Below, one piece after another: positions 13,524 through 33,731 of a DNA stretch of 41,023 bases. The stretch covers positions 1-41,023 of the forward strand of contig CAUJEL010000178.1 in NCBI GenBank assembly GCA_963169875.1, written 5' to 3'. The DNA comes from Candidatus Zhuqueibacterota bacterium. GTDB taxonomy: Bacteria > Zhuqueibacterota > Zhuqueibacteria > Residuimicrobiales > Residuimicrobiaceae. The position numbers were made by a program, and so were the translations under genes. The notes under the pieces are model-generated. The model searched no databases and was not told where the DNA came from. It saw only the letters and a program-made list of their open reading frames with translations. Each line of letters begins with the position of its first letter. Positions within the stretch are counted from its first letter, which is position 1.

Positions 13524-16500
13524 ATGGCCAAAATTCGCTTGCAGAGATCGATGGTCACCCTGCCGCCTGCGGTGGTGCTTTCGATGGTCATTTTACTTTG
13601 CCTGATGGGACAAGTTTGGGCGGATGAGACTGCGCCCAAATCCTATATCGGCGTACGTCCGCCTGTGCTGGCGACGCCGTTGGTGCCCATCGTTGAGGAA
13701 CAGACGTTCAAAGGTCTGCACCTCCAGGGCGCACTATCTCCTCTGCTGAAACGCAGTGTCACCGATATCCGCCGCGAAGTCAAGGTCGACAGCAGCGGAG
13801 AGAATATCAATTTTTCCGAGAATATCGGCAAAATTCCTGTCAATCTGCCCACCTACCTGCCTCTGGATGAATATTCGCGGCGGCGTCAATCCTACAGTAT
13901 GCAGACCATGTGGCAGCGCAATACGCTGGCCAAATTGGGTGAACGTTCCGCCTATGGAGCGGGCGGCGGCGCCCTGCGTATCGATATACCGGTTGAAATC
14001 AAGAGCAAAACCTTTCAAAAGATCTTTGGCAGCGGTACGGTCGGACTCGACGTCACCGGCGACATTAACATCAAGGGCGGGCTGCGCCATGAAAAACGCA
14101 GCGAAGTCAAGTCCACCATGAACCAGGGGAACGACACCAATTTCAAGATGGAGCAGACGCAGCGCTTTCGCGTCTCGGGGCACATCGGCGACAAGGTCAC
14201 CATTGGTGTTGATCAGGACTCGGAGCGCATGTTCGATTTCGAGAACAATCTGCAGCTCAAATACAAGGGCTACGAGGATGAGATCATCGAATCCATCGAA
14301 GCCGGCAACATTGCCCTGGACCTGCCCAGGACCAACTATGTGACCTATGGCGGCAAGAGTTCCGGCCTCTTTGGCATCAAGAGCGTCATGCGTTTGGGCG
14401 ATCTCTCCCTGACCACCATCGCCAGCCAGGAAAAAGGCCAGAAGAAAAAACTGGATTTCAAGGGCGGCGCCGTCGATGACATCAACGAGATCAAAGATTA
14501 CAGCTATGTGAAAAACACCTACTTTTTTCTCGATGAAGTTTACCGCCGCCAGTTTCCCTATCGAGATGCAAATGGCGCATTTCTCTATAATGAGGATAGG
14601 GTCGTTTCGCGCATCGAATTATATAAATCCAAGCCGCAATATGTCAACCGCAATGCCGAATCCTACGTGCATGGGTGGGCCTGGGTGCCGGCCGACGCCG
14701 ATTCCAATAAACTGGTCATCGTCGAGGGTGACACCACGGTTCAGGATCAGATCAACACCTATCGCGGTCCTTTCCTGCGCATGGAAAAAACCAGCTACTA
14801 TGTGGATCCCGTGTTGGGGTATATTCGTTTGAACGAAATGCTGCAACCCGATGAAGTGCTGGCCGTCGCCTTTCAGGATACCAGCGGCCGCATTCGTGGA
14901 AACATCAACTTTGACCCCACCAGGGACAGGGTTCTGCAACTGAAGCTGATCCGTCCCGCCAATCCGCGGCCGACCAACAAGACCTGGAAACTGGCGTGGC
15001 GCAACGTCTATAACATCGGCTCCGCTTCCGAAGCCAATTTTGAATTAAAGATCCTCTATAAACCCTCGGCGGGTATTCCGGAAGAGACCATCAAGATCGA
15101 CGGCAAAACCATCAGTTATTTGCAGGTTTTTGGCCTGGACCGCGTCGGCCGCACCGCCGGAAGTCCGCCGGATAACATCATCGACCGCAATGATAACATC
15201 CTGCGTTTGAAGCAGGGCGAGTTGTGGCTTCCTTCACTGCGCCCGTTCGATCCGGATGAAGCCGAATTCAAGGCGCTGCTGCCCGAGGACAAAAGGGTGT
15301 CCGCCATCTATGATACCACGACCGAGACCTTGTGGGCGAAGGAATCCAAGTTCGTCATTCAGGTCAATTCAAAAATCCGCAAGTCCGAAATTTCTTTGGG
15401 CGTGATGAACGTCATCGAAGGATCGGAAGAGGTGACGCTGAACGGCCGCAAGCTGCAGCGCGGCACGGATTACATGATCGAGTACTTCTCCGGCAACATC
15501 AGCATAAAAAATCAGGAAGCGTTGCAGCCCTCAGCCAATCTGGAAATCACCTATGAAGCCAATCAGGCGTTTCAGATCGACAAAAAAACCATCATGGGTA
15601 TGCGCGCTGATTATGCGCTCTGGGATGAAAGTTTCATCGGCGCCACCTTCATCTATTTGAACGAGAGCACGCTGGATCAGAAGGTGCGCGTCGGCAAGGG
15701 GCCGATGCGGAATCTGATCTGGGATGTCAACTCGGCCATGGCGTTCAAGCCCTTTTTCCTGACCCGTTTTGCCAATCTGCTGCCATTTGTCGATTCCCGC
15801 GATGAGACCACTTTGCGTTTTGAGGGCGAGGTGGCGCAGATCATTCCCAATCCCAATACGCGTAACAACGAGGCCACGGGCGACAATGATGGTGTCGCCT
15901 ATATCGATGATTTTGAAGCTGCCAAACGGACAACCCCGCTCGGCGTGCAGCGTAAAAGCTGGCGCCCGGCTGCGCAGCCGCTCAGCGTGACCGACACGAG
16001 CGCGGTCGGCGAACCGGTCGCCGCCAAACGCGGCAAGATGGTATACTATCAGCCCTATACCCAGGTTTCCATCAAGGAGATCTGGCCCAATCGCGATACC
16101 CAGGGCACCATGGGCACGCAGAATTCAGTTGATGTGCTGGATATCGAATTCACGCCGGTCGATACGCTTGCCAATCAGGCGGACAGTGCACAGGCCATCA
16201 TAGAATCCTGGGGTGGCTTGCAAAAATATCTCTCCTCCGGATACCAGGATCAGTCCGAATCCAAGTTTCTGGAAATTTGGGTTAATACGGCAAATATCAA
16301 CGAAGGCACCATGCACATTGACCTCGGTCAGATCACGGAGGACTATATACCCAATGGCCGGTTCGACACCGAGGATCTTTTCAGCAATGGTCTGCGCAAT
16401 AATTTGCTCGACGAGGGCGAGGATGTCGGTGTCGATGGCATGGCCAACAACGATCCGCGGGCCACGGCGGCGGCGGGCGATTTTTGGGATCTCAACGAGA

Positions 16501-19500
16501 ATAAAATCAGAGACTGGGGTGAACCCTACAGCAATGATGACTGGTCGTATAGTTCGGGGAGCGCCAATCACGAGCGCATCAACGGAACCGAAGGCAATGA
16601 AAACGACATGGGTGGCCGTGTTCCCGATTCAGAGGACATGAACGGCAACAACCTGCTGGATGAAGCGAATGCGTATTTTTCCTATTCTTTCTCGCTCTCG
16701 CGCAATCATCCGGATACGGTCCTGATTGCCGGAAAATCCATTGATGTGAACGATGATTACAAAGATTACGGCTGGCGGCTTTATCGCATCCCCTTGAACG
16801 CGGAGGCGCCGCGGCGCATAAAATACGGGGATGCCGACATTACCAACGTTCAGTACGTCCGCCTGTGGATAGACGGCTTTACCCAGCCGGGTTTGAAATA
16901 TATCCGCATCGCTGAAATCAACCTGGTGGGCAGCGAATGGAAGGAAATGGGCGTCGCCACACCCGAGGCGCCGGAAACCTATACCGCGGGCAAGGATTCC
17001 GTCATTTCCATCTCGGTGATGAACACCCATGATAACCCGGATTACATCCCACCCCCGGGCGTATCAGGTGAAGTCGATCGCGTCACGCAGGTCACCGCAC
17101 GCGAACAGTCCCTGGTCATGAACGTGACGGACATGAATCCGCAGAATAACTGTGCGATTCAAAAGTCGTTATTTGAAGCCCAGGATTATCTCCACTACAA
17201 CACGTTAAAAATGTATATTTACGGCCGTGATCCCAGGGGGTTGCATATTTCTCATGATTCATCCCGCGTCGAGTTTTTTATCCGTTTCGGTGCCAGTGAA
17301 AATGATTATTATGAGATTCGTGAACCGGTATACGAAGGCTGGGACTTGCGCAACAACATCGAGATTGATCTGCAGGAGCTTGCCGCCATCAAGTTGATCC
17401 CGGCCAATTATGACAGCAGCGGATACCGCAAAGGGTACACCAAGGTGTTGTCCAGCGGTAAAACCTGCTTCATCAAGGGGAATCCCTCTCTGACCAACGT
17501 GCGTTTGTTGATCGCCGGTGTGGCCAATCTGGATTCGACACACAGCTTCACCGGTGAAGTGTGGATGAATGATTTGCGTCTTTCGAATGTGAAAAAAGAC
17601 AAAGGCATGGCGTTCCGTGCCCGTGCGGAGTTCAACTGGGCGGGGTTGTTTTCCGCCAATGCCCAAATAGAAAAAATGGATTCGGATTTTCATAATGTCA
17701 CGGAACGATATGGCTCGCAGAATAATTCCACCAATTATTCCGCGTCAGGCACCTTGCAGCTGCACAAATTTCTCCCTTCAAAATGGGGCTTGAGCATTCC
17801 GGTGTCCATGAATTATCGCAGTGCTCAATCCTTGCCCAAGTACAAGCCCAACACCGATGTGGAGGTCACCGAGGACTTGCCCGAAGAGGTGCTGGAGACC
17901 GTTCGCACCAAGAGCGAGCAAAAGGGCTTTACCTTCAGTCTGGGGATGAATTCGCGATCGCAGAATTTTTTCATCAAGAACGTCCTCAACCGTTTGAGTT
18001 TCAATTACGGGGAGAGCCGCGAAAGCGGCTCCAATCCCACTTATAGCCAGACCAAATCGCGGGCGCAGAACAGCGAGGCGCGCTGGGATGTGCAGTTCAG
18101 TCCCAACAACTATTTCCGGCCGTTCAAATGGCTGGGGGAATCGCGGTGGTTGACCAAACTCACGGATATGCGGCTCTATTATTCGCCGACCAGTTTCAAT
18201 GCCAACGTCCGTGGCAGCCGCGCGCGCAGCGTCAGCGTCAGCCGCACGGATCTGGTGCAGCGCAATGAGGTGTTCAGCATAACATCCAGTGTCGGTGGTG
18301 CGGCCAAGATATTCGAATCGTTGCAGTTTGATATAAGCCGTAATTTCACCAATGATCTGCAGGATATTGCCCGTGACACTTTGCGCATGATGCTCAGCAA
18401 CGGCCAATTGGGCTATCTGACGGACATGACGCAAAATTTCAAGATTTCCTATAATCCGAAAATATTCAACTGGTTGACGCATAGTTTCAGTTACAGCACA
18501 ACCTTTGGCTACCGCTTCAATCGCCAGCAGAAGGATCAGGCGCGCAGCGCCCAGTTGGGCAAGACATTCGGCATCAACGGCTCTCTGGACCTCGCCAATT
18601 TCTGGAACTCGATTTACCGCAGCGGCAGTGGCGGCGGCAGCCGTCCCGGCCAACGGCCGGCGCAAGCCCCGCCCAAACGGCCGCCGGTCAGCAAGCCCGA
18701 GGATGAAAAGGCGGAACCTGAGAAGAAAAAAGAGGGATCCGGATTCTCGGTGATGACGGTTTTTGGCAAATTTTTCGGCTTTTTTGAGCCCTTCTCCATC
18801 ACCTTCAACCAACGCAACAACAATACGGTTTATGGCGTCACGGGCATGCCCACCATGAAGTATATGCTCGGCCTGAGCGATACCGTCGGCGTGCCCATGG
18901 AGAGCGCGACAACGGGCTCCGGGACCAGCGGCACTCTCAACCGGCCGACGAGCACCGAGGGCAACACGGTCCATGTTTCTTCCGGGTTCAGCATCAGCCG
19001 CAACATCAAAGTCAGTCTGAATTATGACTATTCCTACTCCAGAAACGCGAGTACGACCGTGACCGGTCAGATGTCGCACAGCCGGCTGGTTTATGGGGAT
19101 ATCGATATGCCGTTCCCGCAGTGGACCTTCCGCGTCTCGGGCCTGGAGAGACTGCCGCTCATCAAAAATTATCTGCAGTCCTTGAGTCTGGATCACGGTT
19201 ATTCCGGCACGTTCGATCAAACTTTTGACGAAAAGAATCGTTTAAAAAGCATCACCAAGGATGACCGTACCTCCAAATTCAGCCCGCTTTTGGGCATGAG
19301 TCTCAATTTTAAAAACGGGATGACCATGTCGGTGCGCTATACCAAGGGCGAAACCACCTCTTACGCCAAAAGCTCCGGATTGGGCGGCACGAAAACCGCC
19401 AACTCGGATCTGCAGGTGTCGGGGCAATACCGCAAGCAGAGCGATTTCCGCATACCCATACCGGTGTGGCCCTTTAAAAACATGCGCCTGAAAAATACGG

Positions 19501-19745
19501 TCAATTTGCAGGTTACGCTCAGTTCACGCAGCAATACGACCTGGAAGAGCCGCGGGGGTGACAAGTGGGAACCGACCGCGGAAACCACCAACTGGTCCTT
19601 CAAACCGGATTTGCAGTACAGCTTCAGCGATCGCGTCAACGGCGGCGCTTTTTTGGAAGTCGGGAAAAACACCAACCGTATCATCGGCAATTCGTCCTAT
19701 TATGAGTTCGGGCTGAATGCCAACATCTCCATCCGCGGCAGATAA
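13524..19745 (+). CDS. sprA: T9SS outer-membrane translocon SprA
   Basis: A 2073-residue outer-membrane protein of the SprA/Sov family, which forms the very large beta-barrel pore through which type IX cargo leaves the periplasm. After a signal peptide (hydrophobic stretch about 13-33, likely cut after VWA34) comes the SprA N-terminal module, with IKSKTFQKIFGSGTVGLDVTG-like sequence near 155-180 and QDSERMFDFENN near 230. An acidic, Asn/Asp-rich plug or loop follows (about 942-1040, with FDTEDLFSNG and SEDMNGNNLLDE), then amphipathic strands to the C-terminus. It is shorter than Flavobacterium SprA (about 2400) and P. gingivalis Sov (about 2500). A Pro/Lys/Glu-rich insert at about 1705-1745 is probably a barrel loop. 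The ATG at 13524 lacks a clear ribosome site; an in-frame ATG at 13551 would shorten the signal peptide. It heads an operon with the glutaminyl-cyclase gene. Confidence 0.93.
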   Translation: MAKIRLQRSMVTLPPAVVLSMVILLCLMGQVWADETAPKSYIGVRPPVLATPLVPIVEEQTFKGLHLQGALSPLLKRSVTDIRREVKVDSSGENINFSENIGKIPVNLPTYLPLDEYSRRRQSYSMQTMWQRNTLAKLGERSAYGAGGGALRIDIPVEIKSKTFQKIFGSGTVGLDVTGDINIKGGLRHEKRSEVKSTMNQGNDTNFKMEQTQRFRVSGHIGDKVTIGVDQDSERMFDFENNLQLKYKGYEDEIIESIEAGNIALDLPRTNYVTYGGKSSGLFGIKSVMRLGDLSLTTIASQEKGQKKKLDFKGGAVDDINEIKDYSYVKNTYFFLDEVYRRQFPYRDANGAFLYNEDRVVSRIELYKSKPQYVNRNAESYVHGWAWVPADADSNKLVIVEGDTTVQDQINTYRGPFLRMEKTSYYVDPVLGYIRLNEMLQPDEVLAVAFQDTSGRIRGNINFDPTRDRVLQLKLIRPANPRPTNKTWKLAWRNVYNIGSASEANFELKILYKPSAGIPEETIKIDGKTISYLQVFGLDRVGRTAGSPPDNIIDRNDNILRLKQGELWLPSLRPFDPDEAEFKALLPEDKRVSAIYDTTTETLWAKESKFVIQVNSKIRKSEISLGVMNVIEGSEEVTLNGRKLQRGTDYMIEYFSGNISIKNQEALQPSANLEITYEANQAFQIDKKTIMGMRADYALWDESFIGATFIYLNESTLDQKVRVGKGPMRNLIWDVNSAMAFKPFFLTRFANLLPFVDSRDETTLRFEGEVAQIIPNPNTRNNEATGDNDGVAYIDDFEAAKRTTPLGVQRKSWRPAAQPLSVTDTSAVGEPVAAKRGKMVYYQPYTQVSIKEIWPNRDTQGTMGTQNSVDVLDIEFTPVDTLANQADSAQAIIESWGGLQKYLSSGYQDQSESKFLEIWVNTANINEGTMHIDLGQITEDYIPNGRFDTEDLFSNGLRNNLLDEGEDVGVDGMANNDPRATAAAGDFWDLNENKIRDWGEPYSNDDWSYSSGSANHERINGTEGNENDMGGRVPDSEDMNGNNLLDEANAYFSYSFSLSRNHPDTVLIAGKSIDVNDDYKDYGWRLYRIPLNAEAPRRIKYGDADITNVQYVRLWIDGFTQPGLKYIRIAEINLVGSEWKEMGVATPEAPETYTAGKDSVISISVMNTHDNPDYIPPPGVSGEVDRVTQVTAREQSLVMNVTDMNPQNNCAIQKSLFEAQDYLHYNTLKMYIYGRDPRGLHISHDSSRVEFFIRFGASENDYYEIREPVYEGWDLRNNIEIDLQELAAIKLIPANYDSSGYRKGYTKVLSSGKTCFIKGNPSLTNVRLLIAGVANLDSTHSFTGEVWMNDLRLSNVKKDKGMAFRARAEFNWAGLFSANAQIEKMDSDFHNVTERYGSQNNSTNYSASGTLQLHKFLPSKWGLSIPVSMNYRSAQSLPKYKPNTDVEVTEDLPEEVLETVRTKSEQKGFTFSLGMNSRSQNFFIKNVLNRLSFNYGESRESGSNPTYSQTKSRAQNSEARWDVQFSPNNYFRPFKWLGESRWLTKLTDMRLYYSPTSFNANVRGSRARSVSVSRTDLVQRNEVFSITSSVGGAAKIFESLQFDISRNFTNDLQDIARDTLRMMLSNGQLGYLTDMTQNFKISYNPKIFNWLTHSFSYSTTFGYRFNRQQKDQARSAQLGKTFGINGSLDLANFWNSIYRSGSGGGSRPGQRPAQAPPKRPPVSKPEDEKAEPEKKKEGSGFSVMTVFGKFFGFFEPFSITFNQRNNNTVYGVTGMPTMKYMLGLSDTVGVPMESATTGSGTSGTLNRPTSTEGNTVHVSSGFSISRNIKVSLNYDYSYSRNASTTVTGQMSHSRLVYGDIDMPFPQWTFRVSGLERLPLIKNYLQSLSLDHGYSGTFDQTFDEKNRLKSITKDDRTSKFSPLLGMSLNFKNGMTMSVRYTKGETTSYAKSSGLGGTKTANSDLQVSGQYRKQSDFRIPIPVWPFKNMRLKNTVNLQVTLSSRSNTTWKSRGGDKWEPTAETTNWSFKPDLQYSFSDRVNGGAFLEVGKNTNRIIGNSSYYEFGLNANISIRGR

Positions 19746-19799
19746 GCGGGGTGAGAGGTCAGATGCCAACTGCGCATTCTTTGGGGGGGGAGGGAGCCT

Positions 19800-20702
19800 A
19801 TGAAAATATTAATGATCATCAGTGCGGCTGTTTTTATGGCACTGGCCGGGAGCGGCTGCGCCCAGGATCCGCCGCTGTTCGATGGCGAAAAAGCCTATGC
19901 CATCCTGAAAAAGCAGTGCGATTTCGGGCCGCGCGTGCCCGGCACGCTTGCGCATCAGAAATGCCGGGATTACCTGGTCACCGCTCTGCGCGGCTATGCG
20001 GATCAAGTCTCCACCCAGGATTTTCTACACACATTTGGCACGCCGGTTCAATCCGCCAGGGCCAGCAACATCATCGCCAATTTCCAGTCCGCCAAGGGCG
20101 ACCGCGTTTTGCTGTGCGCCCATTGGGATTGCCGCCATATTGCGGATGAGGATCCGGATGTCAACAACCGCAACAAGCCTGTGCTCGGCGCCAACGATGG
20201 CGCCTCCGGGGTGGCGGTACTGCTGGAAATCGCCCGGCTGCTCAAGGCGCAGCCGCCGCGCCAGGGCGTCGATATCGTCTTGTTCGATGCGGAGGATCAG
20301 GGCAATCACCAGGATAATCGCAGCTTTGCCAAAGGATCGCAGTTTTTCGCGCGCCATGTGGTGCCGACTTTTAATCCCCGCTACGGGATATTGCTGGATC
20401 TGGTCGGAGATAAAGACCTGGCCATTTACCAGGAGGCCTATTCGCTGCAGATGGCGCGACCTGTCGTTGATAAAGTATGGGCGGCCGCGCAAAAATTGGG
20501 CATCAGCGAATTCATCCCGCAACAGGGATATGCGGTTTTTGATGATCACATCCCGCTTCTCGAACGCGGCATCCCCTGCATCGATATCATAGATTTCGAT
20601 TATAAATACTGGCACACCGTATCCGACACGCCCGACAAATGCAGCGCTGCCAGCCTGGAAAAAGTGGGCCGCACCGTGCTGGAAGTGCTCTACCGCCCGT
20701 AA
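19800..20702 (+). CDS. Glutaminyl-peptide cyclotransferase-like M28 protein
   Basis: A 300-residue zinc protein of the M28 fold that most resembles glutaminyl cyclases, which turn N-terminal Gln into pyroglutamate. Metal ligands expected from human QC are visible: Asp133 (GANDGASG), Glu165 (FDAEDQG) and His272 (KYWHTVSDTPD). The QC hallmarks LLDLVGDKD (198-206) and FDDHIPLLERGIPC (247-260) are also present. The second histidine and extra acidic ligand of true di-zinc aminopeptidases are less clear, which favours a cyclase. The signal peptide ends ALAGSGCAQD: Cys20 may be lipidated, or signal peptidase I may cut before Gln22. It follows sprA by 54 bases with a very strong GGGGGAGGGAG ribosome site. 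An aminopeptidase role cannot be excluded. Confidence 0.8.
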   Translation: MKILMIISAAVFMALAGSGCAQDPPLFDGEKAYAILKKQCDFGPRVPGTLAHQKCRDYLVTALRGYADQVSTQDFLHTFGTPVQSARASNIIANFQSAKGDRVLLCAHWDCRHIADEDPDVNNRNKPVLGANDGASGVAVLLEIARLLKAQPPRQGVDIVLFDAEDQGNHQDNRSFAKGSQFFARHVVPTFNPRYGILLDLVGDKDLAIYQEAYSLQMARPVVDKVWAAAQKLGISEFIPQQGYAVFDDHIPLLERGIPCIDIIDFDYKYWHTVSDTPDKCSAASLEKVGRTVLEVLYRP

Positions 20703-20763: not shown

Positions 20764-21627
20764 ATGCGATCCCTTGGCGTCTATCTCAAGATCACCATTC
20801 CCTGCTCGGGAGATATTCAGGAAGCGGTGAGCAGTTTTCTCTTTGACCGCGGGGCCGCCGGCGTCATTGAACTGCCGTCCGGGCTCGAGGCTTTTTTTGA
20901 CGGGGAACCGCTTCAGGTGGTGCAGGAAGTTAAAAAATACCTCGAGGCTTTGCAGGAGCTGGGCCATGATACCACGCCGGACAGGGTGAGTTACGAAGTG
21001 GCGCCCAACCGCGACTGGAATGCGGAATGGAAAAAAAGTTACACGGGGTTTGCCATCAGCGACCGCATTTTCATCAAGCCGAGCTGGGAGGCTCAGCCGC
21101 AGCGGGCCTATGCGTGCCTGATTGAAATCGATCCCGAGATGGCATTCGGCACCGGCACTCATGCAACGACCCGTCTGTGCCTGGAATTCATGGACACTTA
21201 TCTCAAACCCGGCGCCAACGTGCTGGACATCGGTACGGGCACCGGCATTCTCGCCATGGCCGCGGTCAAGCTGGGCGCCGCTTCTGTCATCGCTTTTGAT
21301 GTGGATCCGGTTGCCGCGGAGACCGCACAACGCAACGCGGCCATCAATGGCGTTGGTGATAAAATAGATATCTTTGCCGGAACCCTGGACACCTTGCTCC
21401 CGGCCAGGGATAAGTTTGATTGGGTCCTTGCCAACGTCAACCGCAGCGAAATTTTAAAAATGTTGCCTTTGTTGGAAAAGTTGCTAGATTATCCTGTACA
21501 AATCATCCTTTCGGGCATCCTGAGAGAGGAAGAGTCCATCATTCGCTCCGCACTCGAGGAATGCCATTTCCAGGCCTGCGAGTTCAGATACGGCGATGAA
21601 TGGCTGGCATGCCGGGTGACCCGGTAG
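20764..21627 (+). CDS. prmA: Ribosomal protein L11 methyltransferase
   Basis: A 287-residue cytoplasmic class I methyltransferase that trimethylates ribosomal protein L11. The N-terminal substrate-recognition domain (1-90) is followed by the family signature AFGTGTHATTRLCLE (127-141), the SAM loop DIGTGTGILAMAA (155-167), FDVDPVAAETAQRNA, and VLANVN, which is the active-site N-x-N-type motif. The start has AAAGGA about nine bases upstream. It lies 61 bases after the glutaminyl-cyclase gene on the same strand and is probably read through from sprA, although its job is unrelated to secretion. Size and motifs are normal. Confidence 0.93.
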   Translation: MRSLGVYLKITIPCSGDIQEAVSSFLFDRGAAGVIELPSGLEAFFDGEPLQVVQEVKKYLEALQELGHDTTPDRVSYEVAPNRDWNAEWKKSYTGFAISDRIFIKPSWEAQPQRAYACLIEIDPEMAFGTGTHATTRLCLEFMDTYLKPGANVLDIGTGTGILAMAAVKLGAASVIAFDVDPVAAETAQRNAAINGVGDKIDIFAGTLDTLLPARDKFDWVLANVNRSEILKMLPLLEKLLDYPVQIILSGILREEESIIRSALEECHFQACEFRYGDEWLACRVTR

Positions 21628-21691: not shown

Positions 21692-22405
21692 GTGATAATC
21701 TTGCCACAGTATAAGATTCACAATCTCACCGCTCGCGGCGCTTCACGACACGGCATTGGTTTTGCCGCGCCGCTCCGCTTCCTCCTGCTTTGGACGATCG
21801 TGCTGTGCATGCCCGCCGTGGCAGCGAAACGGCAAATTATACTGGATTCTCTGTGGGTTCAGGGGGGTGAACTGCGGCTCAGTTTCCATGTCGACGATTT
21901 GCTGGATGACAAGGCCATACAGGGTCTGCAGCGGGGATTCACCTCGGAAATCAGCCATTTGGTGCAACTTTGGCAGGTTAAAGGCGTTATAAGTCAGGTG
22001 GCGGGACAACGTCCGTTCATATTCCGGGTATATCACGATAACTGGAGTCAGAAATTTGCCATCATCAGCGAAGAGGAGAGCCGTTTAACGAGCCAAATCG
22101 AGACGCTGCGCCGCATTTGCACCTCTGTGCAAGCAGCCGCCGTTGTCCATGCGGACCAGCTCGCTCCGGATGCCAGGCTGTTCCTCACCATAACCACGAC
22201 GTTTCAGCCCATCTCAGATGAGACCTATGGAGAATTGCGCGCCTGGGTGTCGGGCCGTACCAGCGACAACAGCAAGGCCGGTCTCAAGCGCGGCCGCTTC
22301 TTTGGTTTTCTGGCCGATCTGCTGGGATTTGGTGATCGCGCCCTGCAACTCAAGACGGATTCTTTTGTGATCACCGCTGGGGGCACTCTGCAATACGTGA
22401 AGTGA
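21692..22405 (+). CDS. Exported DUF4390-like protein
   Basis: About 237 residues if the GTG at 21692 is the start; no good ribosome site is visible, and no in-frame ATG lies before the hydrophobic segment. A signal-type helix (FLLLWTIVLCMPAVAA, about 30-45) precedes a body of beta-type sequence with LWVQGGELRLSFHVDDLLDDKAIQGLQRGF, which fits the pattern of DUF4390 (a small periplasmic domain of unknown function). A second hydrophobic GRFFGFLADLLGFGDRAL stretch lies close to the C-terminus. The DUF4390 assignment rests on pattern memory of the opening segment only. It follows prmA by 64 bases and ends the sprA gene run; nothing further is known of its job. Confidence 0.6.
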   Translation: MIILPQYKIHNLTARGASRHGIGFAAPLRFLLLWTIVLCMPAVAAKRQIILDSLWVQGGELRLSFHVDDLLDDKAIQGLQRGFTSEISHLVQLWQVKGVISQVAGQRPFIFRVYHDNWSQKFAIISEEESRLTSQIETLRRICTSVQAAAVVHADQLAPDARLFLTITTTFQPISDETYGELRAWVSGRTSDNSKAGLKRGRFFGFLADLLGFGDRALQLKTDSFVITAGGTLQYVK

Positions 22406-25500: not shown

Positions 25501-25792
25501 GAGCCAGATGCCGGATCAGTTCACGGTGTTTGCGAATTATCCCAATCCGTTCAATCCGGCGACGACACTGACTTTTGCCGCGCCTGATGCGGGTCAGGTG
25601 CGCGTGGTGATTTACGATGCCCTGGGCCGGCAGGTCCGGGAGATCATGAATGGGTTCATGCCCGCCGGTACCCATGCACTGCAATGGGACGGCCGCTCGG
25701 ATGGCGGCGAAATGGCGGCCTCCGGCGTTTACCTGGCGCGATTCAGCACCGCTGGCTTGCAAAAAACTATCAAAATGGTTTTAATGAAATAA
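22544..25792 (+). CDS. T9SS cargo protein with seven carboxypeptidase-regulatory-like domains
   Basis: A 1082-residue secreted protein. The signal peptide (hydrophobic about 6-26, cut near ISA/EKP) is followed from about residue 120 by seven similar beta-sandwich units, each opening with a GxVxGxI-type strand (GNISGTVTI, GAVITGFIT, GGISGSYR, GVLSGDILA, YISGRIFD, MIQGYIDL, NTISGMVVD). These resemble carboxypeptidase-regulatory/Cna-B folds. The last 85 residues form a T9SS type A sorting domain (YPNPFNPATTLTF, then VVIYDALGRQV and ASGVYLARF). No catalytic motif is seen, so it is probably a structural or binding surface protein. The start has AAAGGG about eight bases upstream. The gene stands alone between a 138-base gap and a strong terminator, and is placed between the sprA and porU operons. 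Confidence 0.88.
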   Translation: MKKIVRYHFFAVLMLLLALFATVAISAEKPMLYRGETMTTPQTLQRAGDLMASRGAQFDEALTEAVDAAVLQRRMQAQMQTVARPENMIPSFMKYFRQNPQALSGSSLQKSLSTSSLPTGNISGTVTIDGSAPDPSYEILVIAFDQHGYYMGHDENVASHEGFYQIRELPVGVYYVLTLSNRYVDEIYNNLISPVDSPQTWRQAEKVQVAENTTTTDIHFDLQRGAVITGFITGEDGYTPLQDMDITFIVTGADAGKELYSTIYYTIDGFYDLVVPLMGNVKVAAVVEGYLPQWYNAQMEWAAATPLTITKFDTVISGIDYFLQTDPSTAFLGGISGSYRYSDQFVPPIASFATVFFFHASDTTLANWTLGIGGSYTLEQELEPGEYYVYLDDQLGNLLGLSNYMGQYWENANTPDGAKTVTVNAGEVTYGIDFVLEKGGVLSGDILAEDGKKLDGVWVLAVDASLVSGELQPFFENLHVFIGSSDSLGHYRIEGMPSGHYLIRTISDSLINSDLGMMKLTSGKYSGKVVDRWYGGDANLFSIDTATPVLVTAPQESPDVDIVLEKAKYISGRIFDSITSQGTSFYRLFALNDTSAMPFLSFSMFTSKKDQIDPLGFFNVGPLPSGSYKLLAVAPLSGPNNYLSEFYDGAYTFDAAQTVTVNDVNVTDLNISVEKAAMIQGYIDLPMPGGSMRAGTDVLDNFPILVYEVTTGKLASMDYVQFNGGYRVDHLLPGQYKVLALPCVPQVAATYFGGGNTWDDPASQVISVGYGEVADCDILLDPALNTISGMVVDDESGAGLTQVMVIAYEPSGHPVGLAMSNYDMVSGTVVDMGGGFTIPGLRPGSYYLRTFALSSVFGLSDQLLSVVDMVGGGGSDVLGGLLGGELGGFTALFDLEIGLYADQWHHQIAAPLALDFQAFLVNLLAYGLPSSYDNSILPIFLPLPMGEVIPEGVSLVNVTEGSAVTGVEFRLHKMSLDDVTGVEVNQSQMPDQFTVFANYPNPFNPATTLTFAAPDAGQVRVVIYDALGRQVREIMNGFMPAGTHALQWDGRSDGGEMAASGVYLARFSTAGLQKTIKMVLMK

Positions 25793-25813: not shown

Positions 25814-25852
25814 AAGCTGCGGTGTGGTTTGTCACATGCCGCAGCTTTTTTT
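25814..25852 (+). terminator. Intrinsic terminator after the cargo gene
   Basis: AAGCTGCGG (25814-25822) pairs perfectly with CCGCAGCTT (25839-25847). An inner TGTG/CACA pair sits in the loop region, and the stem is followed by a T run to 25852. It separates the cargo gene from the porU operon. Confidence 0.92.
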
Positions 25853-25879
25853 ACACAGTGAACCTGTTCTTAAATAGAT

Positions 25880-25981: not shown

Positions 25982-28900
25982 ATGATTGTTCTCAAACCAC
26001 ATCGATTGGGCCGCTGGCGTTTCCTCTTGCCTGTCGTTTTATTTTTTTCCGGTTCGGTCATACACGGTCAGACCTGGTATCGTATTGTAGAAAAAAGCCA
26101 GGAACGGCTCTTGATTGAAGTGACTGCACCGGAACCCGCGTGGGATTCGCTCTCCAGCAATCAATCCATGTACAGCAGATTCAACATGCCGGATTGGCCC
26201 ATTCTGCAGGATGCCAGCCTGCCCGCTCTGCCCTTTCAGATGGTGCTGCTGGACTGGCCGTTCGCAGACGCTCAAATAGCGGTTCTTTCCTCTGCTTCTC
26301 CGCGTCGCATTCCCATGCCGCCGCCTTATAGTGCGGAAGATGTACCCTCTTTGCCCGAGTACAGCGACCATCCCGCCAAAGTGCACCCACCGCGCTCGGG
26401 GCCGGATGTGCTGGCCGATCTCGTTCCGCTGGGCCGGGCTGGCGGGGAAACGCTGTGGGGATTACGCCTCTATCCTTATCAGTACGATGCCCAAAAACAG
26501 GAACTGAGCTACTTTTCGCCCTTTCGTCTGCAGATCTCTTCTCAGACTCCCCTTGCAGGTTTGGGACGCCGTCGCATATCCGCACTCGCCGGCATCGCCC
26601 TGCCCGCGCATGCGGCATCCATCGCGGCCGGCAAGGCGTCGACGCGTTTCAAGGCGGACGGCCGTTGCAAGATCCATGTCAATACGGACGGCCTTTATCG
26701 CATCACGGGCGCGGATCTGCGCGCCGCCGGCATACCCTTAATCGATATCGACATCAAAAAACTGAAATTGAGCCGGGTTGGGCAAACCGTGCCGCTGTTC
26801 GTCTCCGGCTGGCGCGACGGACAATTCCATGATCAGGATTACTTTGAATTCTGGGGCGAAGCCCTGCGTCAGACCTTTCAGAACAAATCCGCGGATCTCT
26901 ACCAGGATCCCTTCAGCAATGTTGCGGTGTACTGGCTCTCCTGGGATGCCCCCCTGACGCAATGGATGAACCAGGAGACCAGTGAAAGCCTGGCCAATGT
27001 CAACGATCCGGTGCAGCGTCCCTTCTCCTTTTATGAAACCGTTCATATCGAGCAGGACGCCAGTTTTCAACATTACTATGATATCAGCCAGATCGATTCG
27101 CTCCGCGATTATTGGCTCTATGATGCCGGCATCCCCTCCGGCAGCAAACGATCCTATCCGTTCAAATTGTACCATCCCGATGTGCGCTCCGCGCTGCCCT
27201 TGCAAGTGCATGCCATGCTGACCGGTTTGACACCGGATAATTTTGATGCGCACCAGGCCGCCCTTTTTCTCAACGACCGTTTCGTCATGCGCGGCAACTC
27301 TTTCCGCCAGGACCTGCTCGAACTGTCCAGCCGGTCCGACATGAACCTCACGGCCAGCTATTTGACCTCCGGCAGCAATACCATGACCATTGTCAATGAA
27401 TATGCCGCCTCCGAGACCGATTATATCTCCCTGAACTGGTTTGAGATCACCTATCCGCGCCTTTATCGCGCCCAGGACAATATCCTGAAATTTTCAGTGC
27501 CGCCGGATTATGACCTGGGCGTGTACCAGTTCACGGTGGATGGTTTTTCCTCCGCGGATGTGGAAATTTTCAAACTGGGCTCGAGCAAAATAGAGGGCGC
27601 GTTGATCGAACGCGTCACGGATGTGGAGGGCTTTACATCTTATCGGGTGCAATTTAACGATACCGTGCCTTCGCGGCAGACAACCTATGTGGCTGTGACT
27701 GGATCTGCCAGGCAAAAGCCGCTGCGCATTGAAGCGGTTAATAACGAATGGATACCCTCTGCCGATGGCAATGTTGATTATGTCGCCATCGTGCCGCGGA
27801 AATGGCAAAGAAACGCGTCCTTGACCGCTTTAATGCAATATCGGCAGAGTCATGGACACCACATCGCCGTGATCACCCTGGAAGACATCCTGGATCATTT
27901 CAATCATGGCATTCGCAGCCCCTATGCGATCAAATCTTTTTTGAGCTGGGCTTATCAGAATTGGCCTTTGCGGCATGTGCTTCTGATCGGGGATGGCAGC
28001 TATCGCCGCCAGGATGTCAATGGGGATACCCTGGATATCATGCCCGTGTTTTTGCGGCAGACGCTTAAATATGGCGCTGCTTCGTGCGATTACTGGTACA
28101 CCTTGCTGGATGGCGGTGATGAACTCGCCGACGTCTGGTTGGGCCGTTTACCGGTCACCAATGAAGATGAACTGGAAATCATCGTCGACAAGATCTTGGC
28201 CCATGAAAACGGCATATCCATGGGAAGTTGGCGGAACCGGCTTTTATTTATCGGAGGCAATGGCTGGGTGTTTCGCGATAAAGGCATGGCTCTGGCAAAA
28301 AATGCACCGCCTGCCTATGATATCTCCCTGCTTTTCACGACCCGTGACGCGGCCATGCCCAATGATCCCTATTATGGCAACACGCCGGAGCTGCTCGACC
28401 ACCTCGACCAGGGATGCGCTGTTGTCAACTTTCACGGCCATGGCGGCGGCGCCATTTGGTCCGATAATGGTCTGCTGCGGCTCGAAGATGTGGAACAGAT
28501 GTCCAATCGCAACCGCTATCCGGTCGTGTTCAGCATGACCTGCTACACCGGGGCTTTCGAGCAGCCCACCGCGTCCACGCTGGCCGAAAAGATGCTTTCC
28601 ACTCCGGAACGGGGCAGCATGGCGTTTCTGGGCGCCAGTGGCTTTGGTTGGCGCGATAATGATGACTATCTGCAAACCGCCATCATGGAATATCTCTACG
28701 AGCATGTGGATGCAACCCTGGGGGAGATTGTTTTTGCCGGGAAAATTAAATATTTTGTGCAATCGTTCGGCAATAACATCGCACTTGCCGAAGTGAATCA
28801 ATATAACCTCTTTGGCGATCCAGCCATGCGCCTCCGCCTTGCCTCGCAAGAGGCAAAAGTGGTTCTCAATCAGAGGTTGTTCAATCGTGGGGATACGGTC

Positions 28901-30757
28901 ATTTGCCAGGCTGAATGGCCCTTCTCTGAAGGCGCCGGTGAGATAAAAGTGGCCGAATCAGAAGGTCTTGAAAGGTATGCAGCCACGTTTGAGGTCGTCA
29001 ATGGACGCAGCACCCACCAATTCATCTTGCCCGCTTCCTTCTCCGGAGAAGAAGGGGCGGTCCGGCTCTATGCGGAAGATGCTCTGGGGGTTGCACAATG
29101 CCACGGCGCCAGCTGGTTTTCCCTTGGCACGCTCTTCTTCGATTCCACCCGGGTTGTTTACGCCGGCACGGACACGCTTTTTTTAAAATTGCATCTGGCA
29201 AACCGGGAGGCGGTGAAGCAGGTGTGGTGCTTGTTCGGGCTGGACACCCTGGTCATGCAACCGACTTTCCAAGGCTGGTATCAATCGCCTCCTCTCGCCT
29301 CCGCGGCCAACGGCGTCTATGCGTTTATGGCCGAAACCATGGATGGGACGCGAAAATCGTCAGCTTATATGCGCTACAAGAGACCGGGGCAGATCAATCT
29401 GGAAATCCAGTCCAGCGATTTGGCATGGGCGGGCGTTACCATCCCGGCGCTGCAAGTGCCGATCCGCAACTGGGGGGACGGTACCGGACCGGTCACGCTG
29501 CGGGTTTTTTATTGGAATCCTGATGTGAATGACTGGCAGCAGGATGTCGCCTCGGACACGGTCACGATACCCCCCTTGGGGATGGCACTCGCTGAGCTGC
29601 CGCTCATCCTGCCGCCAGGGCCGGCCAGGCTGACGCTCATCGCGGAAACACCCGGCTCAGATCGGGTTGGCACGGTTGTCACAGTGACTGTCAATGCCTT
29701 CGCCTTGCGGCGGCAGGGGGGCTTCCTGTGCCCTTCCGGCGTCTGCGATTCCGTGAAAATTGACGCGCACACCTGGCTGGTGGCGCCACCGGGTATGGAA
29801 AATGCAGATATGGTCGTGTTCAGCAATGTCCTGCCTGCGGCTGCCCCGGTCGAGCAGCCCGGCTTTTTGTCATCCGCCCGGTGTGCCGCCTATGAAATCC
29901 GCTTCTCACAGGCGGACGGCTTGCACAACGGCGTCTTTTTGGTGCAAGACCTGAGCGCCTTTTCGGACATGCCGGGCGCTGCGGCCGCGGCTGCTGTTTT
30001 TCGCCGCAGCCCCATAACCGGCAAATGGGGCCGTTTGAACAGCGTACATCTCGAACAAAAACTGCAGTCGCCCCTTTCTCAGGACGGCCGCTATACGGTG
30101 CTCTGGCCGCAGGATACGGTTGCACCGCAAATTCAGGTGCTGCTGGACGGTAAACCCTACACACCCTCCATGTATGTCAGCAGAGAACCACACATCACCG
30201 TGCGTTTACAGGATGACAATGGCATCGACGTTTCGGAAGGTTCGCTCGTGGTGCTGCTGGACGGCGGCGAACTGGACCGGGATGTCTGGACATTGCCGGA
30301 TTCCATTAGCGATGGCAATCAAGTGGTGGTCGATTTCAGAACCCAGCTGCAGGCGGGACAGCATCGCCTCCAGGTCGCCGCGACGGATTGCAATGGCAAC
30401 AGCAGCGACCCCCTGGATCTGGCTTTTCAGGTGGCCGGAGAATTTGCGATCAATTGGCTGGGAAATTATCCCAATCCATTTGCAAAAAATACCGTCTTTG
30501 CTTATGTGCTGACGCAACCGGCGGACATGATCAGCCTGAAAATTTACACCGCCGCCGGACGAAAGATTCTCGAAACAGATGGACGACTCATGGGGGACGA
30601 TCCCAATCCGCTCAGCAGCGATTATCATGAAATACTCTGGGATGGCACTGATGCAGAAGGCCAGGCGGTTGCCAATGGCGTTTATTTTTACCGGTTTGTG
30701 GCACGCGCAAATGGCATAACGCGCGAAGTGACCGGAAAAATTGTACGGTTGAGATAG
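25982..30757 (+). CDS. porU: T9SS sortase PorU (peptidase C25, gingipain fold)
   Basis: A 1591-residue cell-surface cysteine peptidase that cuts off the C-terminal sorting domain of type IX cargo and joins the cargo to a surface glycolipid. The signal peptide (about 14-29) ends SVIHG with Gln30 at +1. A beta-rich prodomain runs to about 600. The C25 domain follows, with YVAIVPRKW, HVLLIGDGSY, the catalytic His820 in NFHGHGGG and Cys854 in SMTCYTGAF, 34 residues apart as in gingipains, and NLFGDPAMRL at its end. Ig-like domains fill the region to 1500. The last 85 residues form a sorting domain (NYPNPFAKNT, ANGVYFYRF). It is longer than P. gingivalis PorU (1158). The ATG at 25982 starts the signal peptide and has GAGG upstream. 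It is first in a four-gene operon. Confidence 0.92.
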   Translation: MIVLKPHRLGRWRFLLPVVLFFSGSVIHGQTWYRIVEKSQERLLIEVTAPEPAWDSLSSNQSMYSRFNMPDWPILQDASLPALPFQMVLLDWPFADAQIAVLSSASPRRIPMPPPYSAEDVPSLPEYSDHPAKVHPPRSGPDVLADLVPLGRAGGETLWGLRLYPYQYDAQKQELSYFSPFRLQISSQTPLAGLGRRRISALAGIALPAHAASIAAGKASTRFKADGRCKIHVNTDGLYRITGADLRAAGIPLIDIDIKKLKLSRVGQTVPLFVSGWRDGQFHDQDYFEFWGEALRQTFQNKSADLYQDPFSNVAVYWLSWDAPLTQWMNQETSESLANVNDPVQRPFSFYETVHIEQDASFQHYYDISQIDSLRDYWLYDAGIPSGSKRSYPFKLYHPDVRSALPLQVHAMLTGLTPDNFDAHQAALFLNDRFVMRGNSFRQDLLELSSRSDMNLTASYLTSGSNTMTIVNEYAASETDYISLNWFEITYPRLYRAQDNILKFSVPPDYDLGVYQFTVDGFSSADVEIFKLGSSKIEGALIERVTDVEGFTSYRVQFNDTVPSRQTTYVAVTGSARQKPLRIEAVNNEWIPSADGNVDYVAIVPRKWQRNASLTALMQYRQSHGHHIAVITLEDILDHFNHGIRSPYAIKSFLSWAYQNWPLRHVLLIGDGSYRRQDVNGDTLDIMPVFLRQTLKYGAASCDYWYTLLDGGDELADVWLGRLPVTNEDELEIIVDKILAHENGISMGSWRNRLLFIGGNGWVFRDKGMALAKNAPPAYDISLLFTTRDAAMPNDPYYGNTPELLDHLDQGCAVVNFHGHGGGAIWSDNGLLRLEDVEQMSNRNRYPVVFSMTCYTGAFEQPTASTLAEKMLSTPERGSMAFLGASGFGWRDNDDYLQTAIMEYLYEHVDATLGEIVFAGKIKYFVQSFGNNIALAEVNQYNLFGDPAMRLRLASQEAKVVLNQRLFNRGDTVICQAEWPFSEGAGEIKVAESEGLERYAATFEVVNGRSTHQFILPASFSGEEGAVRLYAEDALGVAQCHGASWFSLGTLFFDSTRVVYAGTDTLFLKLHLANREAVKQVWCLFGLDTLVMQPTFQGWYQSPPLASAANGVYAFMAETMDGTRKSSAYMRYKRPGQINLEIQSSDLAWAGVTIPALQVPIRNWGDGTGPVTLRVFYWNPDVNDWQQDVASDTVTIPPLGMALAELPLILPPGPARLTLIAETPGSDRVGTVVTVTVNAFALRRQGGFLCPSGVCDSVKIDAHTWLVAPPGMENADMVVFSNVLPAAAPVEQPGFLSSARCAAYEIRFSQADGLHNGVFLVQDLSAFSDMPGAAAAAAVFRRSPITGKWGRLNSVHLEQKLQSPLSQDGRYTVLWPQDTVAPQIQVLLDGKPYTPSMYVSREPHITVRLQDDNGIDVSEGSLVVLLDGGELDRDVWTLPDSISDGNQVVVDFRTQLQAGQHRLQVAATDCNGNSSDPLDLAFQVAGEFAINWLGNYPNPFAKNTVFAYVLTQPADMISLKIYTAAGRKILETDGRLMGDDPNPLSSDYHEILWDGTDAEGQAVANGVYFYRFVARANGITREVTGKIVRLR

Positions 30758-30759
30758 CC

Positions 30760-31794
30760 ATGATGAGGATACCATTACACAGGCGTCAGTGCATCCTTGC
30801 ACTGGTCATCATGCTCCAGGTGTTGCAGCCGCGCGACGTAAAAGCCGATGGCCGCTATGCCGCTGCCACGCTCGATCTGGGCGTGGGCGCGCGTTCCCTG
30901 GCCCTGGGCGGCGCCGTGGCGGCTCTATATGGACATGAGAGTTTCCGCTACAATCCTGCCGGGCTCGCTTTTTCCCAGCGGCCGGAGCTGGCCATGATGT
31001 ACGCGCCCACATTCGGCAGCATCGCCACGCCCATGGCCAATTTTTACTATCTGGGCGGCAGCATGCCCATGCCCGCCGGGGGGACGGTCAGCGTCCACTG
31101 GACGCGATTCAATGTCGATGATATACCCGTCTACCCCAAATTGCGCGGAAATGCGTTCATCGACCGTCTCAGTGATCCTTCCCTGCGACCCGATGGACAA
31201 CCGCAGGGCGCCATCCGCGACGTTGAAAACGCCATTTATCTGTCATTCGCCCGGCCGGTCAAGATGACGCTGCCGCTGGGCTGGCTCTACACGGATCTGC
31301 CCGTGGAAATGCCGGTGGGTTTGAATGTCAAAGTGTTGCGCCAATCGCTGGGACCAAGCTCGGCCTCCGGTCTTGGCATTGATTTTGGCGTCATGTTGAA
31401 ATTCAGTCTTGGCCACCTGCTGGATATTCGCAAGATGGGTGAGGTGTGCCTGGGTTTTTCTGCACTGGATTTCGCCCGCACCACCCTGGTCTGGAACAAT
31501 CAGAAAGAGGAGCGGGTGGCCAGAACCACCATGGCCGGGGTTTCCTATCGTCAGGCGCTCGGTTTTCATGACAGCCATTTGACCCTGTTGTGGACGTTTC
31601 ACGACAAATATGAAAAGAGCCATCTTTTCGGTCTGGAATTCGAACTTGGCCGTTTTGCTTTGCGCTGCGGCTATAATCAGGCTGGATTTTCGACCGGTGC
31701 GGGCTTGAATTGGCGCCGATTTCGCGTTGATTATGCCTTCACCGCAGTGGATTACGAGTATGTGCACCGCATTGGCTGTGCATTCATTTTTTAA
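30760..31794 (+). CDS. porV: T9SS outer-membrane shuttle protein PorV
   Basis: A 344-residue outer-membrane beta-barrel of the PorV/PorQ (FadL-like) family. PorV binds the sorting domain of cargo emerging from SprA and hands it to PorU. After a signal peptide (about 1-30) the family opening is clear: LDLGVGARSLALGGAVAALYG followed by YNPAGLAF (about 36-68). Amphipathic strands run to the last residues (RIGCAFIF, ending in Phe as barrel proteins do). It starts two bases after the porU stop, so translation is probably coupled; ATG codons at 30760 and 30763 are both possible. PorQ is the alternative name within this family, but adjacency to porU and presence of only one copy favour PorV. Confidence 0.82.
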   Translation: MMRIPLHRRQCILALVIMLQVLQPRDVKADGRYAAATLDLGVGARSLALGGAVAALYGHESFRYNPAGLAFSQRPELAMMYAPTFGSIATPMANFYYLGGSMPMPAGGTVSVHWTRFNVDDIPVYPKLRGNAFIDRLSDPSLRPDGQPQGAIRDVENAIYLSFARPVKMTLPLGWLYTDLPVEMPVGLNVKVLRQSLGPSSASGLGIDFGVMLKFSLGHLLDIRKMGEVCLGFSALDFARTTLVWNNQKEERVARTTMAGVSYRQALGFHDSHLTLLWTFHDKYEKSHLFGLEFELGRFALRCGYNQAGFSTGAGLNWRRFRVDYAFTAVDYEYVHRIGCAFIF

Positions 31795-31805
31795 CGGGAG
31801 TTCAC

Positions 31806-32504
31806 ATGGTTCGAATAGGCAAAGTCCTGCTGCTGGCGCTCTTTTTCACCCTGGGCGGCTGCAAGGAACGCGTGAATAATCCTGAACCTTTGCCGCCGCG
31901 GCCCATCTTTGTGGCGGCCTCGGCGGATACCACGGCTTGGGAACATGGCATCGATGCCATTCCTGAGGAAAATGCCATTTTTCTGGAATGGCGTACCAAT
32001 GCAGCCTATGAGGCTCTGCGGCTGTATCGAAAAAAAGGCAATGCCGCCGCTTTCGCGCTGCTGGCTGCGCCGGGGCTCAACGACACCACATTCGTCGATC
32101 GCGTCGATGTCGGGGTGCGTTATTATTACTATATGGTCGCTGAAGACGCATCCGGCATTTCCAGCGCACCGTCCGATACCATCGATTACCAACTGCTTCC
32201 TAAAGCCATCAATCTCGGTGTCTCCCGGATTGATACGATGAGATTTAGCTGGCAAATTCAGGGTATCCGGCCCGTGTCGTTCATCCTGCGGCTGTATGAC
32301 GAATCCACCCAAGAGATCGTGTGGTTGAGCGTGATACCACCCAGCTACCAGGGTGATAAAGAAGAAACAGCCTTTGATTGGGACGGCAAGGCCCGGCGTA
32401 AACAACTGCTCCAGGGCGCGCAGTACCGCTGGCGCATCGATTGCGTCGGATCGGCCGCCTTTTCGGGGAGCGAATCCGGGTGGCATCGCTTTGTGATGCT
32501 GTAA
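31806..32504 (+). CDS. Uncharacterised lipoprotein with fibronectin-III-like domain
   Basis: A 232-residue protein I do not recognise as a named family. The signal peptide ends in a perfect lipobox (LGGC, Cys19), so it is probably membrane-anchored. Residues about 55-120 look like a fibronectin type III unit (AIFLEWRTNAAYEALRLYRK, then TTFVDRVDVGVRYYYYMVAED). A second beta-type half (about 130-230) has ISW-like RFSWQIQG and ends GWHRFVML. The start has GGGAG seven bases upstream and lies 11 bases after porV. Its place inside the porU-porV operon suggests a role in the secretion or attachment machinery, but there is no direct evidence. Confidence 0.85.
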   Translation: MVRIGKVLLLALFFTLGGCKERVNNPEPLPPRPIFVAASADTTAWEHGIDAIPEENAIFLEWRTNAAYEALRLYRKKGNAAAFALLAAPGLNDTTFVDRVDVGVRYYYYMVAEDASGISSAPSDTIDYQLLPKAINLGVSRIDTMRFSWQIQGIRPVSFILRLYDESTQEIVWLSVIPPSYQGDKEETAFDWDGKARRKQLLQGAQYRWRIDCVGSAAFSGSESGWHRFVML

Positions 32505-32537
32505 TGGGGTCATCGGGTTTTCAGTGAGGATGTAAAC

Positions 32538-33731
32538 ATGCGTTTTAAAGAGTCAAGAGTTGCGAGCTGGACAATTTTAATTGTCCTGGTGGTTTTTGTC
32601 AACGGCGTGCAAGCGGCCTCAGTGGCCAATGGGGGTTTTGGATTGCCGCATGTGCGGGCGGCCTGGGTTCTGGACAAAGGGCATCTCACCGCCAACGCCT
32701 ATACGCGATTCTGGGGCAGAACCGCGCCGCAGTCCTATGCACCTTTCGGCACACCCGGAGATCGCGCTGTGTGGGATCTGCACACCGCCTTCATGCTCAA
32801 CCTCGGCGTGGGCGCACAGATTGAGCTTGAACTATCGCCGGTGCTGTACCAATCGGATCAGAGTGAAAAAGGTCAATCGCTCCATGATATCCAGGCCGGA
32901 GCGACGGTGGCGCTGCCATCCTGGCCAACACCCGCTGTGCAGTGGGGCGCCCGCTTCACCTTTACCATACCCCAGGGCAAACGTCATAATCTGTTATTTG
33001 AGGAATACTCGGCCTCCGCTTATGCGTTCAGTTGCGCCGGATTGTTGAGTTATGCCTTTGACCCGGTGTTTCCGCAAGAGGCGCCCAGCCTGCATTTCAA
33101 TGCCGGTTACCATCTCTACAATGACATCGGCGAAGTCCTGACCGGCGATTATTTCGATCCCAACAGCCAGGTGATACGGCGAAGCCAGTGGCTGGGTTAT
33201 TCGCTGGGTCTGTTGCTGCCCGGAGAGCGCTTTGATTGGGGCGCTGAATGCTATGGCATGCATTGGCTGCAACAACCGCCCAAGGCGGCGGAAGGCCGGG
33301 AAGATCATCTGTATGGCGGTTTGTTCCTCACCTACAAACCGTTGCACTGGCTGCGGTTCCGCTTGGGCGGCGAGATAAGGCTGAGTGAAGACAGTGATGA
33401 GACCGTTCCATCGCTCGCCGACCGTGGTTTGGGTGAATTTCCAAATTACAACGATTGGCGGCTACAGCTGGGTGTGCAAATGAACGTCCTGCCGCTGCAT
33501 CTGCTGCGGACCACGACGCGGGAGTTGTTCATCCGCCGCGCCGATGAGCGCCGGGAATTATTCGAACAGATCATCGATGACGGCAGCCGCTCACCAGCAA
33601 CGGCCAGCGAATTGGAGCGCATTCGCGCGGAGAGAACCAGGGCGGAGAAAGAGCTGGAACGATTGCAGAAAATTCTCGATCGCCGCAAAGAGGCGGAAAA
33701 ACGGGCGCAGCAGGACACGAACAACGAGTAA
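32538..33731 (+). CDS. Uncharacterised outer-membrane beta-barrel with charged helical C-terminal tail
   Basis: A 397-residue protein. The signal peptide is at about 10-26 (cut after VQA). Residues about 30-330 alternate in the manner of a transmembrane beta-barrel (NLGVGAQIELELSPVLY, LRFRLGGEIRLSE, WRLQLGVQMNVLPLHLL). About 65 residues of highly charged helix follow (RRADERRELFEQ, ERIRAERTRAEKELERLQKI, ending QDTNNE). A barrel ending in a soluble coiled-coil tail is unusual; the tail would lie in the periplasm. It follows the lipoprotein gene by 33 bases (GAGG upstream of ATG), last in the porU operon. It could be a PorP/SprF-like accessory barrel, but no PorP signature was recognised. Confidence 0.82.
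   Translation: MRFKESRVASWTILIVLVVFVNGVQAASVANGGFGLPHVRAAWVLDKGHLTANAYTRFWGRTAPQSYAPFGTPGDRAVWDLHTAFMLNLGVGAQIELELSPVLYQSDQSEKGQSLHDIQAGATVALPSWPTPAVQWGARFTFTIPQGKRHNLLFEEYSASAYAFSCAGLLSYAFDPVFPQEAPSLHFNAGYHLYNDIGEVLTGDYFDPNSQVIRRSQWLGYSLGLLLPGERFDWGAECYGMHWLQQPPKAAEGREDHLYGGLFLTYKPLHWLRFRLGGEIRLSEDSDETVPSLADRGLGEFPNYNDWRLQLGVQMNVLPLHLLRTTTRELFIRRADERRELFEQIIDDGSRSPATASELERIRAERTRAEKELERLQKILDRRKEAEKRAQQDTNNE

Follow-up and report, generated by a model that had tools for sequence, protein, structure and literature searches.

A T9SS translocon locus in Zhuqueibacterota (KSB1) with an adjoining, paralogous PorU/PorV-like pair

In a member of the uncultured phylum Candidatus Zhuqueibacterota (KSB1), a type IX secretion system (T9SS) outside Bacteroidota has a paralogous PorU/PorV-like unit beside its translocon gene, and this neighbourhood is real and well conserved. 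T9SSs are usually described from Bacteroidota, in which the proton-driven GldLM motor is the power source. The window, that is the whole stretch of DNA analysed (41,023 nucleotides), is the entire contig C178 of a 5.0-Mb genome in 215 contigs. Nine of its genes, all on the plus strand, appear to form two adjacent modules, a reading to which we assign a probability of roughly 0.6. The first module, from sprA to the gene for a CTD (C-terminal sorting domain) protein, would supply the T9SS translocon and an enzyme that converts the N-terminal glutamine of exported proteins to pyroglutamate. The second, consisting of a C25 protease, a PorV-like barrel, a lipoprotein and a FapF-like barrel, would be a paralogous finishing unit. 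Gene identities and order, paralogy, conserved catalytic residues and the abundance of CTDs are shown by the sequences, whereas the shuttle and sortase roles, the anchor, the division of substrates and the two transcription units are inferred. The features of the locus, and the CTD protein gene that faces it, are as follows.

13524-19745, plus strand: sprA, for SprA/Sov, the T9SS outer-membrane translocon, 2073 aa (TIGR04189, PDB 6h3i)
19800-20702, plus strand: M28-family glutaminyl cyclase (QC)-like lipoprotein, 300 aa (profile against structures, conserved positions)
20764-21627, plus strand: PrmA, ribosomal protein L11 methyltransferase (PF06325, 216.8 bits; TIGR00406, 186.2 bits, cut-off 183.2)
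21692-22405, plus strand: DUF4390-like exported protein, 237 aa (PF14334, 19.9 bits, under the cut-off of 27)
22544-25792, plus strand: CTD protein with carboxypeptidase-regulatory-like repeats, 1082 aa (TIGR04183, CTD model A5)
25814-25847, plus strand: terminator-like hairpin, 13 pairs then TTTTT (consensus match only)
25982-30757, plus strand: PorU-like C25 cysteine peptidase with CTD, 1591 aa from the ATG (PF01364, NF033707)
30760-31794, plus strand: PorV-family outer-membrane barrel, 344 aa (NF033709, predicted fold)
31806-32504, plus strand: lipoprotein, 232 aa (LGGC lipobox read from the sequence)
32538-33731, plus strand: outer-membrane barrel with a C-terminal helical/coiled-coil tail, 397 aa (FapF/COG4313-like predicted fold)
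34510-40866, minus strand: large adhesin-like CTD protein, 2118 aa (FG-GAP, Big_1, Invasin_D3 and FlgD_ig profile matches)

The translocon gene and its operon

The 2073-residue protein is, judging by its sequence, certainly SprA, as initially proposed. It matches TIGR04189 over its full length with 896.8 bits (cut-off 200) in the profile search, and the solved SprA of Flavobacterium johnsoniae (PDB 6h3i) with an E-value of 3.6e-74. A single-protein scan of named genomes gave 83% identity to the SprA of bacterium UBA2214; UBA2214 is a class name for the candidate phylum KSB1 (PMC9386943). This phylum is now proposed as Zhuqueibacterota, inside the FCB superphylum (PMC11683472), and a 2025 study treated SprA as an FCB-specific channel (PMC12611786). 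By profile search SprA is present in 82 of the 82 KSB1/Zhuqueibacterota genomes examined, and the lineage lies outside Bacteroidota. The tree of KSB1 and Bacteroidota-like SprA sequences that had been called for has a branch with a support of 0.93 that sets all the KSB1 sequences apart on one side, although the tree is unrooted and cannot be rooted. Our literature search found no publication linking KSB1 with T9SS, and no mention of secretion or T9SS in the Zhuqueibacterota paper (PMC11683472).

The genes of the nine-gene locus are separated by 2 to 138 bases if the ORF starts are used as listed. The C25 ORF opens at TTG 25880 (1625 residues), and the start at ATG 25982, which yields 1591 residues, leaves 189 bases ahead of the gene. 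Upstream, an lptG-lptF pair (10717-13201) is divergent from sprA, and the 322-base spacer between lptF and sprA presumably holds promoters of both directions.

As for the gene that follows sprA, the M28 protein profile gives 242-311 bits for structures of bacterial QCs and of proteins closely related to them, and 23 bits for a leucyl aminopeptidase. The candidate zinc and active-site positions (D133, E165/D166 and W271-H272) are conserved across 18 orthologues. Nearest relatives and conserved positions thus point to the type II glutaminyl cyclase family and a predicted QC activity. The suggested glutaminyl cyclase beside sprA therefore holds at the family level, bacterial QCs being among its nearest solved relatives. 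The prmA gene is a housekeeping passenger within the operon. The DUF4390-like protein, which has aligned orthologues in 12 of the KSB1 loci compared, is kept in the operon. The 1082-residue CTD protein (TIGR04183, 35 bits, cut-off 23; A5 model, 106 bits) has orthologues in six other genomes, with 34-38% identity.

The hairpin lies between the sprA operon and the C25-barrel module, ahead of ATG 25982. Judging by this consensus hairpin, the locus may be transcribed as two units, split at that point; hairpins of the same kind often arise by chance, 22 having been found against 16.5 expected in shuffles.

A paralogue of the PorU/PorV pair beside sprA

The 1591-residue protein belongs to the C25 family (PF01364, 287 bits). 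Its His and Cys align with the catalytic residues of PorU (6za2) and gingipain R and are kept in ten orthologues, and its residues 263-994 align to positions 8-741 of the PorU equivalog model NF033707, so that the long PorU N-terminal region is retained. To that extent the 'C25 sortase with catalytic His/Cys' of the initial annotation stands, but its assignment as the core PorU does not. The protein scores 324.8 bits on NF033707, below the cut-off of 420, whereas a 1352-residue protein encoded on contig C172 of the same genome reaches 886.7 bits and is the PorU equivalog. C25 proteins number at least four in this genome. When 40 C25 domains are placed in a tree, the class of the window protein (21 rows; support 100/97), the PorU class (13 rows; 99/94) and a glycan-locus class (5 rows; 100/100) each occupy one side of a branch. 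The window class occurs phylum-wide, apart from the PorU class.

The 344-residue barrel yields a similar picture. Its score on the PorV/PorQ family model NF033709 is 75.7 bits, below the cut-off of 90, and it has no match to the PorV model NF033710 at an E-value of 0.001. Its predicted structure (pLDDT 82) has a PorV-type fold: PorV 8gl6_F comes first in the fold search (Z 31.3, rmsd 5.3, 286 residues aligned), PorV 6h3i_F scores Z 30.3 (rmsd 4.1, 276 aligned), and the FadL family is next with Z 29.6. The 'PorV-type barrel' is thus confirmed in family and predicted fold but not as the core PorV, the best PorV of the genome being encoded on contig C116 (302.9 bits on NF033709; 243 of 250 on NF033710). 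The proposed check for further porV copies revealed 36 PorV-family barrels in this genome, and there are 15-41 in ten other KSB1 genomes. This expansion is far above a secretion shuttle's own need.

Because both scores are below the cut-offs, better PorU and PorV candidates are found elsewhere in the genome and the C25 protein branches apart from the PorU class, the window pair is paralogous to the core pair, as far as sequences can tell. We thus rejected these genes as the core PorU/PorV pair; two of the five genes on which the initial annotation was centred, porU and porV, were misnamed. The barrel is a divergent PorV paralogue, the partner of the C25 protein. The NCBIfam families PorU2 and PorV2 represent a similar concept of a second, paralogous sortase/barrel pair, but the window proteins are partial profile matches only. 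The C25 protein scores 228 bits on NF052324 (cut-off 450) and the barrel 61 bits on NF052325 (cut-off 325), both far below threshold, and we have not given them these names. Our literature search found no publication naming PorU2.

Other arrangements of these families were observed in KSB1. The PorV gene of contig C116 is part of a cluster (1133-11418) conserved in 7 of 7 KSB1 genomes (L133-L138 being the other loci). Next to PorV, this cluster encodes an M6-like CTD protein (NF052323, 534 of 600 bits), a protein with a TolB propeller (about 1005 residues) and a further two exported proteins of small size. PorU-class C25 proteins occur as tandem duplicates in several genomes (L112, L114, L107; G062:C232). 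On contig C10 (7972-13886), a 1618-residue C25 protein with a PorU score of 417 precedes a PorV-family protein (93.6 bits), with UDP-sugar dehydrogenase-like and glycosyltransferase-like genes nearby. This pair recurs in several KSB1 genomes (L111, L115, L116), and may represent a sortase dedicated to one particular glycan anchor.

The conserved His and Cys, the predicted barrel fold and the recurrent pairing make it plausible that the pair beside sprA acts as a finishing unit. Cargo would exit through SprA and pass to the PorV-like barrel, which would act as its shuttle; the C25 enzyme would then cleave the cargo CTD and, by analogy with PorU, join the cargo to a surface anchor. As the genome also encodes a canonical PorU and a canonical PorV on other contigs, and one more C25/PorV-like pair in a glycan cluster, each such pair probably serves its own cargo set or its own anchor.

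The two proteins could also be ordinary surface proteins of the cargo type, namely a protease resembling the gingipains and a transporter of the FadL type, both serving nutrition, whose adjacency to sprA in one taxonomic order is a matter of chance and of little meaning. The C25 family includes secreted gingipains, and catalytic residues do not separate a sortase from such a protease. The barrel model scores FadL/TodX transporters almost as high as PorV, and 15-41 PorV-family copies per genome suggest uses beyond secretion. However, the pairing of C25 and PorV-like proteins is kept throughout the phylum, in many cases together with the lipoprotein and the FapF-like barrel, and the C25 protein has kept the N-terminal region that aligns to PorU. 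We regard the nutritional explanation as unlikely and favour the finishing unit.

Conservation of the gene order

The QC gene follows sprA in 24 of the 34 KSB1 sprA loci compared. The linkage from sprA through the C25 gene is found in 10 of the 11 testable genomes of the window's taxonomic order, the window included, but in only 1 of the 20 KSB1 genomes from outside that order whose sequence extends for some 12 kb or more downstream. The comparison of related genomes thus supports the gene order within this taxonomic order and not in the rest of the phylum. The C25-barrel module occurs without sprA elsewhere in KSB1. Where the C25 gene is away from sprA, a PorV-like gene follows in nearly all cases, and genes for the lipoprotein and/or the 397-residue barrel usually come after the pair. 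Orthologues of the lipoprotein lie beside the module in 4 loci in one locus comparison and 6 in another. Those of the 397-residue barrel adjoin it in 9 loci; this protein is predicted to have 12 strands and a C-terminal helical tail (pLDDT 74), FapF and COG4313 channels being nearest.

For comparison, we used 30 SprA neighbourhoods of a phylum (that of genome G142) called Bacteroidota-like by inference from its SprA and Gld proteins. No C25 or PrmA gene was found in any of the 30, which is in line with the statement that this gene order is not common in Bacteroidota. PorV-profile matches there were weak (30-32 bits), and the sole QC-profile match was a weak one, at 36 bits, to a 422-residue ORF.

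These data bear on the idea that the locus is a minimal, compact T9SS core, in which the C25 protein would be PorU and the barrel PorV. The families and their order are as stated, and both proteins belong to the PorU/PorV superfamilies by profile and fold; the genes do lie on one strand in about 20 kb. Nevertheless, those taken for porU and porV are paralogues rather than core genes, and the PorU equivalog and the best PorV are encoded on contigs C172 and C116 of a genome with 36 barrels and at least four C25 proteins, so this is not a minimal module for secretion and attachment. As the linkage is limited to one taxonomic order and one other genome, the locus does not define the essential parts of T9SS either, and the full cluster was rejected as a phylum-wide essential set. 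With the C25 protein also in a clade of its own, the minimal-core reading is largely refuted and highly improbable.

Cargo, motor and the place of KSB1 among T9SSs

The presence of three sorting-domain proteins in the window was borne out. The CTDs of the 1082-residue protein, the C25 protein and the 2118-residue protein are all matched in frame by model A5, which was built with these three among its own rows, and two of them are also matched by TIGR04183. The gene of the 2118-residue protein (TIGR04183, 24.7 bits, cut-off 23) is convergent with the locus; its product, whose N-terminus is probably cut by the contig end, is a probable cargo outside the operon. The CTD profile built in this analysis has at least 150 matches in the genome of the window. 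Seven other KSB1 genomes gave from 46 to at least 150 each, and four genomes that lack SprA gave none. Such numbers of predicted CTDs in the genome point to an active secretion system.

As for the QC, a crude home-made signal-peptide predictor and small numbers gave Gln at position +1 in 23 of 98 KSB1 signal-peptide-like ORFs (23%), compared with a background of 6.7% and with 53% in a small Bacteroidota-like control. This excess suggests that the QC may have substrates in KSB1. The Q-rule has been reported as specific to Bacteroidetes (PMC5837995). The KSB1 protein shares the M28 fold of the Bacteroidetes Q-rule QC (PG2157) and, like it, would act on exported proteins; the KSB1 gene differs in being next to sprA.

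No gldKLMN motor genes are present in the window, as had been noted. The search was extended to full genomes with GldL, GldM and GldN models, and none was found in KSB1: the GldL model and two GldM models had no match over cut-off, and no KSB1 match was listed for GldN. The GldM result comes with poor sensitivity in the control, since SprA is present in 46 of 60 genomes from the phylum of G142 and the GldM models match in 14-15 of them. All GldM-positive control genomes with SprA in the tree fall in one SprA clade. Sub-threshold matches to GldL in one KSB1 genome (G009, 24 bits) and to GldM_1st in four others (17-22 bits) were rejected as evidence. G142 itself, a complete single-contig genome, shows the reverse of the KSB1 situation, with GldM and GldN above cut-off and no SprA match.

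A T9SS that works without the GldKLMN motor, in which folding or the sortase step would release the cargo, would be compatible with the two-module view. The lack of GldL, GldM and GldN matches over cut-off, while SprA is present throughout and CTDs abound, argues for it. So do Ignavibacterium and Melioribacter, which are reported to have PorV, SprA and Plug and no other T9SS protein (PMC11705866). However, as the GldM models miss most SprA-bearing Bacteroidota-like genomes, divergent motors may escape them and a motorless KSB1 system is unproven; we consider it doubtful. The alternatives are that this motor is missing from many bacteria with SprA, or that it goes unrecognised by the models.

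SprA without a motor has thus already been reported for Ignavibacterium, and KSB1 similarly has SprA without recognised motor genes outside the classical Bacteroidota. KSB1 goes beyond the PorV-SprA-Plug set in that it also encodes a PorU equivalog and additional C25/PorV-like pairs, and its repertoire of CTDs is very large. With the T9SS of Bacteroidota such as F. johnsoniae and Porphyromonas gingivalis it shares SprA, CTDs, C25 proteins with the same His/Cys and PorV-type barrels. It differs in that GldL, GldM and GldN are not recognised, that the C25/PorV-like pair by sprA is a paralogue and that QC and prmA follow sprA, an arrangement seen in 0 of the 30 Bacteroidota-like loci. It is tempting to speculate, at rather long odds, that a whole FCB phylum makes heavy use of a T9SS without GldKLMN (at least 150 cargo proteins per genome in most of those counted), with finishing split among several dedicated PorU/PorV-like pairs, one by sprA and one in glycan clusters.

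The finding does not serve to define a minimal core locus. It shows that T9SS is widespread outside the group in which it is usually studied, yet is not confined to one minimal locus. If the motor is truly absent from KSB1, the question arises of what drives export, and it can be tested; if the motor has merely diverged, this phylum would provide distant sequences for finding the fixed residues of the motor. Finally, the existence of several paralogous pairs suggests that cargo or anchors could be divided among them.
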